Positions 12,968-30,310 of a stretch of DNA of 54,583 nt are shown here, in pieces. The DNA lies in the IMG/VR virus record IMGVR_UViG_3300030116_001444, positions 539 to 55,121 of that record. One strand, written 5' to 3'. Within the stretch, counting starts at the first letter, position 1. Each line of letters begins with the position of its first letter. Source of the DNA: a virus. The notes beneath the pieces were generated by a model. That model worked only from the letters and a program-made list of their open reading frames with translations. It was not told the DNA's origin and ran no database searches. The translations under genes were made by a program, and so were the position numbers.

Positions 12968-13251
12968 AATTGACTTAACAGAACCAAACAGTACGCAACT
13001 GAACCCAACTTTACATAACATAACCGCCTCAACAAAACATAACGAGACTGAACGCAACCTAACCTAACGGAACATAACCGCCTTAACTAAACTCAACGAA
13101 ACTAACCTAAATGAAACTCAATTAAACGTAACCGCCTTTGCTCAACATAACAAAACCTAACTTAAAACAACGTAACCTAACTCAACCGACTTAACAGAAC
13201 CCAACCCAACGAAACAAAACGCAACTTAACAGAAATAAACATAACCGACTT
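12968..13251. repeat. Nested pentamer array: (AACNN)9 blocks with 9-bp linkers, 54-bp period
   Basis: Linkers start at 12968 (AATTGACTT), 13022 (AACCGCCTC), 13076 and 13130 (AACCGCCTT), 13184 and 13243 (AACCGACTT). The spacing is 54, 54, 54, 54 and 59 bp. Between linkers lie 9, 9, 9, 9 and 10 pentamers; by my count 37 of 46 read exactly AACNN, while the last two bases vary freely. It fills the gap between two minus-strand genes and overlaps only the stop codon of the upstream one. In the message each unit reads AAGKCGGTT followed by nine NNGTT. No ORF crosses it. See findings. Confidence 0.9.
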
Positions 13252-13768
13252 ACGCTGCTTCTTCCTTAACTGTTTTCGCTTTTAGTTCCTCAAGGATTCT
13301 ATCTATTTCACTGACATCGACATTTAATAAAGAACAAGTTCCTAAATATCTTTTTTGCCAAGATTTTAAATCACGCAAAGCTTGTAAAGCTAATTCTGTC
13401 ATTGTATCTGTTTCTTTAACATCAACCGATACGTAACCACCACCATTGGCTCTATTATTAATAGGAGAAATAAGTGATGGTACATCAACGACTTCAACTT
13501 TTAAGTTTTCTATTTTAGATGGTTCAGGTATTTCAGATATATTAATTTTAATTCTAAGACCTGTAACAAACTGTCTAGCCATACTTTCTCTATGTTTGTC
13601 TGCCATTTCTTCATCAGACGCACCAAAAAAAAGATTGTAAACTTTATGATCTGTTTGATTTCTTAACCAATCTACAAATTCGGAAGGAACATAGATGTTC
13701 CTCCCTGTTTTATTTAGATAGTCATCAATAATATCTTGCCTATCTTGCTTTGTAAAACGAAGTGACAT
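13250..13768 (-). CDS. Hypothetical protein of the recombination block, 172 residues
   Basis: The protein begins MSLRFTKQDRQDIIDDYLNK and has a middle part with 'ARQFVTGLRIKINISEIPEP' and a helical C-terminus (LALQALRDLKSWQKRYLG ... VSEIDRILEELKAKTVKEEAA) that may form a coiled coil. Its ATG shares one base with the stop of the RAMP-like gene, so the two are translationally coupled and could work together. No domain recognised. Directly after its stop begins the AACNN array. Confidence 0.7.
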   Translation of the reverse strand: MSLRFTKQDRQDIIDDYLNKTGRNIYVPSEFVDWLRNQTDHKVYNLFFGASDEEMADKHRESMARQFVTGLRIKINISEIPEPSKIENLKVEVVDVPSLISPINNRANGGGYVSVDVKETDTMTELALQALRDLKSWQKRYLGTCSLLNVDVSEIDRILEELKAKTVKEEAA

Positions 13769-14523
13769 TATGCAGCCCTCCTTATAACTTCTTCTTTATA
13801 AAAGTCATAAAGTTCTTGAGTTTCTGCATCATTTATAATGATGTCTTTCATCGCTTTTTCTTGAGCTTTTCTACCAATCTTAGTTCTAGTTTCCCAAATA
13901 TCTTTGAATTGGTCATTACCTTCAAAATCAACAAACCAAGATCCAAAGTTTCCTTTACCTTTTTCTTGCCTGTTATCGCCAATACCGCAAATCATCCCTG
14001 CATTTTGCAACAAAGCTACAATAGAATGCTGAGAAAGTGTTGGAGTAACAAATGCAATGTCAACTTCTGCACACCATTCATTGACAATAGCTCTTGTACG
14101 AATGTCAGGTGTTTTATTCATATCACTAGATCTTACAACATCCATATAAAGTTTGGGTGTTCCCCATATAGATATTTTCTGTTGAGGTAAAAAAATCAAA
14201 CGATTTACGGATGTTTTGTTTACACCACTTGTTTCAAGGGCAGCCGTTGCCATAGCTCCTTTTACACCAGGAGCAGGAAAACCTAATAGGGTATCTCCAT
14301 CTGCCATCTTATGAATAGATGATCTAAACTCTAATTCTGGATTATGCTTTATATCTTTCTTCTGTGCAGCTGTCTTACGACCAGCACCAATAAGCAAATC
14401 TCTCTTAGCTTTTTCAGCCATACGATTAAAAATAATAGGCGTATGTCCTATCATCCTTAAAGTAATTCTACCTTGCTTTAGTGCATCAATAGTGACACTT
14501 GTATTTGTAGTTTTCTTAATCAT
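13768..14523 (-). CDS. RAMP-like (Cas7/Csm3-resembling) phage protein, tentative
   Basis: 251 residues. Two motifs recall the RAMP superfamily RNA-binding proteins of type III CRISPR systems. They are FPAPGVKGAM at 82-91 (compare 'IPGSSLKGALR') and a glycine-rich loop GIGDNRQEKGKGNFG at 180-194 (compare 'GLGxRxxRGFG'), in the order and spacing seen in Csm3-type proteins. No other CRISPR gene or array is present. Neighbours are DUF669-like and Sak4-like recombination genes, so a nucleic-acid annealing or binding role is plausible. The resemblance is by eye only; without a profile search it may be coincidence. Confidence 0.6.
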   Translation of the reverse strand: MIKKTTNTSVTIDALKQGRITLRMIGHTPIIFNRMAEKAKRDLLIGAGRKTAAQKKDIKHNPELEFRSSIHKMADGDTLLGFPAPGVKGAMATAALETSGVNKTSVNRLIFLPQQKISIWGTPKLYMDVVRSSDMNKTPDIRTRAIVNEWCAEVDIAFVTPTLSQHSIVALLQNAGMICGIGDNRQEKGKGNFGSWFVDFEGNDQFKDIWETRTKIGRKAQEKAMKDIIINDAETQELYDFYKEEVIRRAA

Positions 14524-15248: not shown

Positions 15249-16119
15249 TAGTTGTTACCTCTTCTTTCTTATTTGCAATTTTAGGATCAATAAAATCCAA
15301 CTCCTTATCATGATTTGAATGATCACTGCTTAGTTTAGCGAGTAGCTTACCTAAGTGTGGCTCTTCCAAAGTATCTAATCTGCCCGATCTATCTTTGGCA
15401 GGATAGCCCCATTCATTAAGTGTTTGACACACGAATGATCGGTAGGTTCCTGTTTTTTCATCACCTGTCATGATTGCCATAGTTATGACTTCATCAACGA
15501 TTCCAGGCAGTTCTCTTCCTGTCTTAGAACCCTCTATCTGAAGTTCATAGATGGTACGAGAATATTCATCTATTCTCTCATCAAGTATGCCGACAAAGAC
15601 CACATTCTTATCACGAATATGCTGTAAGTGTGTTAGCCAACTCATCATTTCTCTCCCGTGCATACCATAAGCTGCTCTAGTGTCTAGTTTACCAGACCTG
15701 TCAGACTTATTCTCTGGTTGTTGTAAGCAATACTGAAAGCATAGTCTACCTGCTACAGTAATACTATCAACAAAAATAGTGTCGTACTTAGATAAAAACT
15801 GACTTGGATCGCCTAATGTAGCCAATACACTTTCATAATGTGCTTGGCTGTAGGCACTGTCATTACCTAAAGATGGATTAGCGCCACCTAAAAAACAGGC
15901 AAAATCACGACATTCTCCCCAAGTTCTAGGACGAATCACATCGATAGGCCAACCCTCAATGGCTGCATCGCCTGCCTCTAGATCCATAAATAATGTTTTG
16001 TCAGAGTCTAGTGTCCTAGCAAGAGTGGTTTTACCCACCCCACTAGGTCCCATGATGACGATCTTATGTCCTCTTTTCTCTGCCATGCGTTGCTCCGCTG
16101 ATATAATTTGTAGTCCCAT
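15241..16119 (-). CDS. Sak4-like / AAA_24 RecA-type ATPase
   Basis: 292 residues. P-loop IMGPSGVGKTT near 21-31, then 'TLFMDLEAGDAAIEGWPIDV', and Walker B 'YDTIFVDSITVAG' near 115-127. A later 'NVVFVGILDER' and 'GRELPGIVDEVITM' complete the AAA_24 pattern. Related phage proteins (Sak4 group) are RecA-like annealing/recombination ATPases that work with an SSB. The gene lies between the DUF669-like gene and a small partner gene (1-bp overlap). The N-terminal start at 16119 follows a good ribosome site (AGGAGAGAAC). Confidence 0.75.
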   Translation of the reverse strand: MGLQIISAEQRMAEKRGHKIVIMGPSGVGKTTLARTLDSDKTLFMDLEAGDAAIEGWPIDVIRPRTWGECRDFACFLGGANPSLGNDSAYSQAHYESVLATLGDPSQFLSKYDTIFVDSITVAGRLCFQYCLQQPENKSDRSGKLDTRAAYGMHGREMMSWLTHLQHIRDKNVVFVGILDERIDEYSRTIYELQIEGSKTGRELPGIVDEVITMAIMTGDEKTGTYRSFVCQTLNEWGYPAKDRSGRLDTLEEPHLGKLLAKLSSDHSNHDKELDFIDPKIANKKEEVTTNV

Positions 16120-29593: not shown

Positions 29594-30310
29594 CTATGCT
29601 TGTTGTTGGTCCCAAGAAGGACTTTGATTCGGTGTGACCAAAGAATAACTCGGTGTTTGACTTGGAGTTACCTTTGAAAAACTAGGTGTTTGACTCGGTT
29701 GCACTTGTGAATAACTCGCAGTTTGATTTGGTGTTATCTTAGTATAACTCGGATCTTGAGAAATTTCAATATTTCCCCATACAAGAACTTGACCTATTTC
29801 AGTATTGCCAGAAACTCCTTGCATATTAGTAAGTATACCACCACCATTAAGGATTGATACCATATTGCCTAATTCAACAGAAATACCAAATTGCGCTCTA
29901 GCTGCAGATGCACCGGAAGCAGCCTGAGCAGTTGAATCATCAAAGAAATCTGCACTTGCAGAATTGATAGTATCAAAAAATTCTTTTGCTAAAGATGAAA
30001 TAAATATTTGCTCTCCTACAATTACTTGTTGTGCTAACTTTTCTAAAATATCAACTCTCGTAGATTCAACTACTTGAGCAGCAGCTAAGTCTCGTATGTC
30101 TTGTTCTGTGACACTAGATCCAGAAGCATTTCTAAATGTAGAGGTTCCAGTTTCTACAAAGTCTTTTTCAACAACAATACCTGCAGAACCACTTACACCT
30201 ACAGCGCTAGAATTAACTGTTGCTGTAATTGAAACACCAGTTGGTGTAACAAATATTCTAAATAATACTGTTGATAATGGTAGTTCTGAAAATGATTGAT
30301 GTCCGAACAA
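29594..30310 (-). CDS. Virion-region protein with C-terminal 11-residue Pro/Gln repeats
   Basis: The protein (238 residues) begins FGHQSFSELPLSTVLFRIF; the only start in reach is a TTG at 30310, without a clear ribosome site, and the decayed palindrome 30304-30315 covers it. The middle is helical. The end has four units of about 11 residues (SYTKITPNQTA, SYSQVQPSQTP, SFSKVTPSQTP, SYSLVTPNQSP) closing with SWDQQQA. It lies between two fiber genes; a fiber-attachment or tail-tip role is inference. Confidence 0.6.
   Translation of the reverse strand: MFGHQSFSELPLSTVLFRIFVTPTGVSITATVNSSAVGVSGSAGIVVEKDFVETGTSTFRNASGSSVTEQDIRDLAAAQVVESTRVDILEKLAQQVIVGEQIFISSLAKEFFDTINSASADFFDDSTAQAASGASAARAQFGISVELGNMVSILNGGGILTNMQGVSGNTEIGQVLVWGNIEISQDPSYTKITPNQTASYSQVQPSQTPSFSKVTPSQTPSYSLVTPNQSPSWDQQQA

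Follow-up and report, generated by a model that had tools for sequence, protein, structure and literature searches.

The Viral Interference Programmable Repeat system (VIPR) was described in a 2026 preprint (PMC13142463). As described there, VIPR consists of a phage protein of the RAMP type (Vipr), an accessory vap gene (vap1-6 in the published naming) and vrRNAs of 9-16 YNNGG repeats. The NN dinucleotides alone specify the DNA target, one base being skipped between successive pairs. The anchors used in the experiments were GGY, the system repressed both reporters and phages, and its natural targets lie in competing phages (PMC13142463).

Our window, by which we mean the whole stretch of 54,583 nucleotides of viral DNA that was analysed, carries at 12968-13251, on the minus strand, five blocks of GUU-NN repeats running toward lower coordinates. 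From its anatomy, its neighbours and its code it is close to certain that this tract is a VIPR vrRNA array. In common with the type II system of Escherichia phage SUSP1 (PMC13142463), the locus has a Vipr homologue, a sense-strand array of pentamers in which three bases are anchor and two are hypervariable, decoding of targets with a one-base skip, and the minimal phage layout of vipr plus vap. In SUSP1 the anchor is GGY and every guide is followed by a structured 3' tail (PMC13142463), whereas in the window the anchor is GUU, a four-base unit joins the guides head to tail, no tail is predicted, and the accessory protein belongs to a different family. Phages Quico, Ecliptus and UmaThurman share Vipr and the accessory family with the window, and their GGC/GGY-NN arrays likewise have single-base junctions (GGC-A-GGC), but their anchor is GGC or GGT instead of GTT and their junction base is A instead of G.

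Two more distant likenesses should be mentioned. The Cas7/Csm3 backbone of Class 1 CRISPR complexes resembles the window system in its predicted fold and in the repetition of a protein along a guide RNA, although Class 1 systems have contiguous spacers flanked by CRISPR repeats and many cas genes, and their pairing is interrupted at every sixth base, whereas the window array sets aside three of every five guide bases. TRAP, the trp RNA-binding attenuation protein, similarly reads a triplet followed by a two-base spacer, about 11 times per RNA; the window system, however, has no TRAP homologue and it is the spacers of the array that carry the information.

Results

Anatomy of the array

An earlier note on this DNA had placed 9-bp linkers at 12968, 13022, 13076, 13130, 13184 and 13243, and these positions proved exact. 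The blocks so delimited measure 54, 54, 54, 54 and 59 bp and contain 46 pentamers in total, 37 of them exact AACNN as had been counted. Over the 46 pentamers the plus-strand anchor bases are A in 42, A in 44 and C in 42, while the final two bases are near random. The autocorrelation that the note had proposed gave peaks at 5 bp (0.55) and 54 bp (0.63). The 284 bp contain 30 in-phase AAC-AAC pairs; 200 dinucleotide shuffles of the whole window never gave more than 4, and shuffling the tract 2000 times never more than 8. Between blocks the identity is 0.86 at the anchors and 0.24 at the variable bases, the latter no higher than the 0.26 expected from composition; the blocks are thus not recent copies: they keep a common frame, and the NN bases of each are independent of those of the others, in agreement with the proposal that the pattern itself is selected.

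On the RNA strand, which is the gene (minus) strand, each block reads (NNGUU)9-10, and 7 of the 46 units deviate from G[GT]Y. Although correctly placed, the 9-bp linker is not a separate element: it is a normal pentamer, AACCG, followed by the four-base unit MCTT, so that the junction on the RNA strand is GTT-AA-GKC-G-GTT, one unit whose two-base spacer has been cut to a single base. It is at this shortened unit (GKC-G-GTT) that one block meets the next, head to tail, and the unit is probably a mark for phasing or processing. The 5' junction, AAGTCGGTT (13243-13251, minus strand), has the four-base unit GKC-G before GTT and overlaps the upstream gene at its stop codon.

All five guide blocks lie on the minus strand, and their NN codes are given here 5' to 3'. 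B1 (13184-13242), the 59-bp block, reads AT-TA-CT-AA-GC-TT-TC-GG-GG-CT-AA, and B2 (13130-13183), which is common to the related contigs L015 and L019, reads GA-AG-AC-GT-AA-AG-TT-AT-GA-AA. B3 (13076-13129) has three decayed anchors and the code AC-TA-GA-TC-TA-TA-TC-GA-TA-AA. The codes of the last two blocks are AT-CC-AG-AG-GC-CA-TC-AT-TT-GA for B4 (13022-13075) and AT-AT-AA-GG-CA-GC-CT-TG-CT-AA for B5 (12968-13021); relatives carrying B5 differ from the window in 2-3 NN bases and 0-1 anchor bases.

When the RNA of the array was folded, its structure was no greater than that of shuffles (z-score -0.30), so the conserved structured 3' tail that follows each guide in SUSP1-like type II systems is not predicted between the window blocks. 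Rfam contained no family matching the array, and no identical direct repeats of CRISPR size were present in the tract. Elsewhere in the window, at 29643-29752, a 33-bp unit occurs in about 3.3 copies (71% matches).

The Vipr protein and the accessory gene

Clustering of the genes beside arrays gave two families, A and B, each with a member in the window. The family A gene (13768-14523, minus strand) encodes a protein of 251 aa (phrog_4652) and is located one gene upstream of the array, 515 bp apart, with the array in sense orientation to it. A family A profile, made from the window member and 15 array neighbours, matched the PDB entry 36pp, 'SUSP1 Vipr protein', with an E-value of 2.6e-39; the window protein alone matched the solved SUSP1 Vipr with an E-value of 9e-4. 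In addition, the AF2 model of the window Vipr (pLDDT 84) was matched by Foldseek to Csm3/Cas7 subunits from CRISPR complexes of types III and VII (E 4e-5). The window Vipr is therefore predicted to be a guide-RNA binding protein of the Cas7/RAMP kind. As a known family, Vipr is absent from Pfam, NCBIfam and PADLOC, and in the Gordonia phages UmaThurman and Ecliptus and the Mycobacterium phage Quico it is annotated as a hypothetical protein.

The family B gene (13250-13768, minus strand) encodes 172 aa and is a probable vap by its linkage to Vipr. Of 79 loci, 67 have the family beside Vipr, and the remaining 12 are short contig ends or SUSP1. AF2 gave a poor model of this protein (pTM 0.43), and a structure search with it gave no match. 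The reading frames of both genes are intact in the window, which has in this way the Vipr homologue, the array (9-10 GUU-NN units and a junction unit per block) and the accessory gene by which VIPR is recognised.

Arrays of the same design in other viruses

In a first broad scan many AACNN matches were plain microsatellites, which were set aside. As the earlier note had recommended, relatives were searched for the tract, and arrays of the same design were found in many independent IMG/VR contigs; the tract is thus not an assembly artefact. Their blocks measure 54, 59 or 64 bp, four bases more than a run of 10, 11 or 12 pentamers, most blocks of the GUU clade hold 9-12 units, and block order differs between near relatives. 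In the mRNA sense the arrays are nearly always (NNGUU)n and begin right after a stop codon. When 84,980 prokaryote genomes were scanned for an 8-unit varied AACNN pattern, only 6 matches were obtained, mostly of low complexity, and the element is therefore essentially viral.

A census was made of 78 Vipr loci, comprising relatives of the window's clade and SUSP1, Quico, Ecliptus and UmaThurman; SUSP1 served as the positive control for array detection and its GGT arrays were found. Arrays of G[GT]Y-NN lay on the vipr strand in 73 of the 78 loci and on the opposite strand in none, and the gene-sense (NNGUU) strand is thus the acting one, as had been suggested. The anchors vary among loci, some having GGC and others a mixture, while in the clade of the window GTT predominates. 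The 5' leader of an SF2 helicase, which had been put forward as the functional context, is incidental: homologues of the window helicase were found in only 6 of 79 Vipr loci and those of its Sak4 in 9 of 79, and the unit therefore does not include the helicase.

Several other arrangements were seen. In three close relatives (L005, L006 and L020) a T-run hairpin and a convergent gene lie 3' of the array in the mRNA sense, and there the array can terminate a transcript. In nine more distant Vipr phages several intergenic gaps contain GUU-NN arrays, whose separators differ from phage to phage (such as ATTTATTTCGTT or TATAATAC) and may be structured tails; a search of Rfam with the separators of six of these phages found no known RNA. 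In L169 (1243-2151) AACNN arrays are reversed, on the strand of the downstream gene and just before its ribosome-binding site, and are possibly unrelated.

Guides of related phages decode into genes of other phages

We compared 397 guides with 3.48 Mb of phage DNA and counted the distinct guide segments that matched at no fewer than 18 read bases. Five segments matched when one base was skipped between the pairs, whereas none did with skips of 0, 2 or 4 or in two scrambled controls; the skip of 3 gave one segment, located in an array remnant. One of the five is the match of window block B4 in contig L255, which was discounted because that contig had been fetched on account of it, and among the other four the segments of L196 and L253 share one target. 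The guide of L242 was left out of the control run by a complexity filter, and its matches come from an earlier run.

The L242 guide matches, in about 18 phage loci, the codons of the Sak4 motif GIVDEVITM. The window is one of these loci (15479-15504, minus strand), with all 18 read bases matched by this guide of a rival phage. The guide of L250 differs at one codon, which changes the motif to GIVDQVITM, and it matches phages with that residue. Similarly, the terminase (TerL) motif EAIETAQGAHD is matched in five loci by the guides of L196 (22/22) and L253 (18/18), and an integrase motif, TMRYAHFAP, by a guide of L011 (18/18). The matches of L250, L253, L196 and L011 are all in codon phase, and Pfam confirmed the identity of the integrase and terminase targets. 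L011 belongs to the window's GUU clade, its Vipr being 93% identical, and the matches that follow the one-base-skip rule thus include one from a phage of the GUU type. Guides of L011, L013 and L014, all of that clade, spell (T)TMRYAH[L/F]AP, and L013 and L014 use other synonymous codons for R and L.

It is clear from these matches that the last two bases of each pentamer, which the earlier note had regarded as free, are information. When substitutions between related guides were examined, 17 of 47 events over all guides were exchanges of codon synonyms, a result equalled in 8 of 8280 alternative sets; for GUU guides alone, 102 of the 8280 sets were as good. The matches also outline a predicted chain of attack, in which guides of L196 and L253 are directed at the terminase of L242 and L250, and guides of L242 and L250 at the Sak4 of other VIPR phages, including that of the window.

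The five guides of the window

For none of blocks B1-B5 did the searches yield a convincing target. For B1 there was no exact (18/18) target in IMG/VR, and 49 related records contained no match to B1 or B5 even when as many as 2 mismatches were allowed. B2 and B3 had no convincing target in the phage DNA collected for this analysis, and when 3.5 Mb of phage DNA were searched by motif, no target in codon phase emerged for the window guides. The one exact IMG/VR match of B4 (L255) lies in a tail gene, is out of codon phase and is about what chance would give. Against the window's own genome no guide matched at 15 of 18 or better, as expected of guides aimed elsewhere. The first codons of B4 read M-P-S/R-S/R-A and guides of L006 and L020 read alike through different synonyms, a resemblance in sequence that may hint at a common target not yet seen.

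The lack of targets, together with the seven deviating units and the degenerate block B3, would fit a decayed VIPR relic in which the anchors and guides of the window phage no longer function. We consider this very unlikely, since the Vipr and vap frames are intact, relatives retain the anchors while the NN bases change and the blocks are reshuffled, and the guides of L011, L013 and L014, close relatives, can be read as an integrase motif; moreover, the targets of marine phages are mostly unsequenced.

Discussion

We conclude that the tract very probably encodes the vrRNA guides of a phage VIPR system, coated by Vipr and read through their NN bases, which silence genes of competing phages or prophages. 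The array would be transcribed with the vipr and vap genes as (NNGUU)n, and each GUU anchor would be held by one subunit of Vipr, a Cas7-like RAMP with a single domain, so that the RNA is coated. The NN dinucleotides, left exposed, may then pair with double-stranded DNA, reading two positions and skipping the next, which is usually the third position of a codon. One block of about 54-59 nt would correspond to one guide of 9-11 NN, that is 18-22 read bases. The complexes would bind genes of these competitors, such as the recombinase, terminase and integrase genes indicated in relatives, and silence them. We infer expression, binding and silencing in the window phage from the preprint (PMC13142463) and from the guide-target matches in relatives, and its own five guides presumably have targets of this kind.

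The earlier note had likened the tract to the sites of a ring-shaped protein such as TRAP. Part of this idea holds, namely triplets with two-base gaps held by a repeating protein, and a TRAP-like ring reading about 11 GUU triplets in the helicase leader to regulate helicase expression would agree with the period of 5, with the 10-12 triplets per block, which is the TRAP geometry, and with the position of the arrays, which come after a stop codon and ahead of the following gene. The protein found beside the arrays is, however, the Cas7-like Vipr, and no TrpBP (PF02081) was present in 30 tract-bearing records; the adjacency of the helicase is not conserved, and the variable bases behave as guides, with full matches to rival genes and exchanges between codon synonyms, unlike spacers. 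A search for literature on TRAP-type arrays found nothing relevant, and we regard a TRAP-like regulator as highly improbable.

A DNA-level element, whether a replication origin (single-strand DNA in the earlier note's version), a primase or helicase loading site or a plus-strand Rho loading site, has next to no credibility: the tract does adjoin replication genes and its plus strand is C-rich and G-poor, but the arrays go with vipr and not with replication genes (Sak4 in 9 and a helicase in 6 of 79 loci), the Sak4 and helicase homologues of L184 are several kb away, and the polarity with vipr transcription is strict, 73 to 0.

The assignment to VIPR thus stands, and the earlier note's remark that no element of this design had been described was correct until 2026 and has been overtaken by the preprint (PMC13142463). 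The system itself is already known; the GUU anchor, and with it the lack of tails at the junctions, looks like a variant form and may even be the 'related consensus' to which PMC13142463 refers. We think it somewhat more probable than not that these two features mark a GUU-anchored, tail-less VIPR subtype of marine phages, in which concatenated guides are punctuated only by a unit shortened by one base (GKY-N-GKY) and which takes part in a network of mutual targeting: the window phage, at its conserved Sak4 motif, is a predicted target of a guide in another VIPR phage, and close relatives aim at the integrases of temperate phages. If this is true, the code extends past GGY anchors and a new rule of processing or phasing is implied.

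VIPR was described only in 2026 and has been proposed as a forerunner of CRISPR. The tract indicates that its code is readable from raw sequence, that an anchor other than GGY is possible and that guides decode into peptide motifs of rival genes. The cultured phages UmaThurman, Ecliptus and Quico would offer tractable laboratory models for Vipr phages. In uncultured communities, conflict between phages becomes predictable down to the attacker, the victim and the gene.
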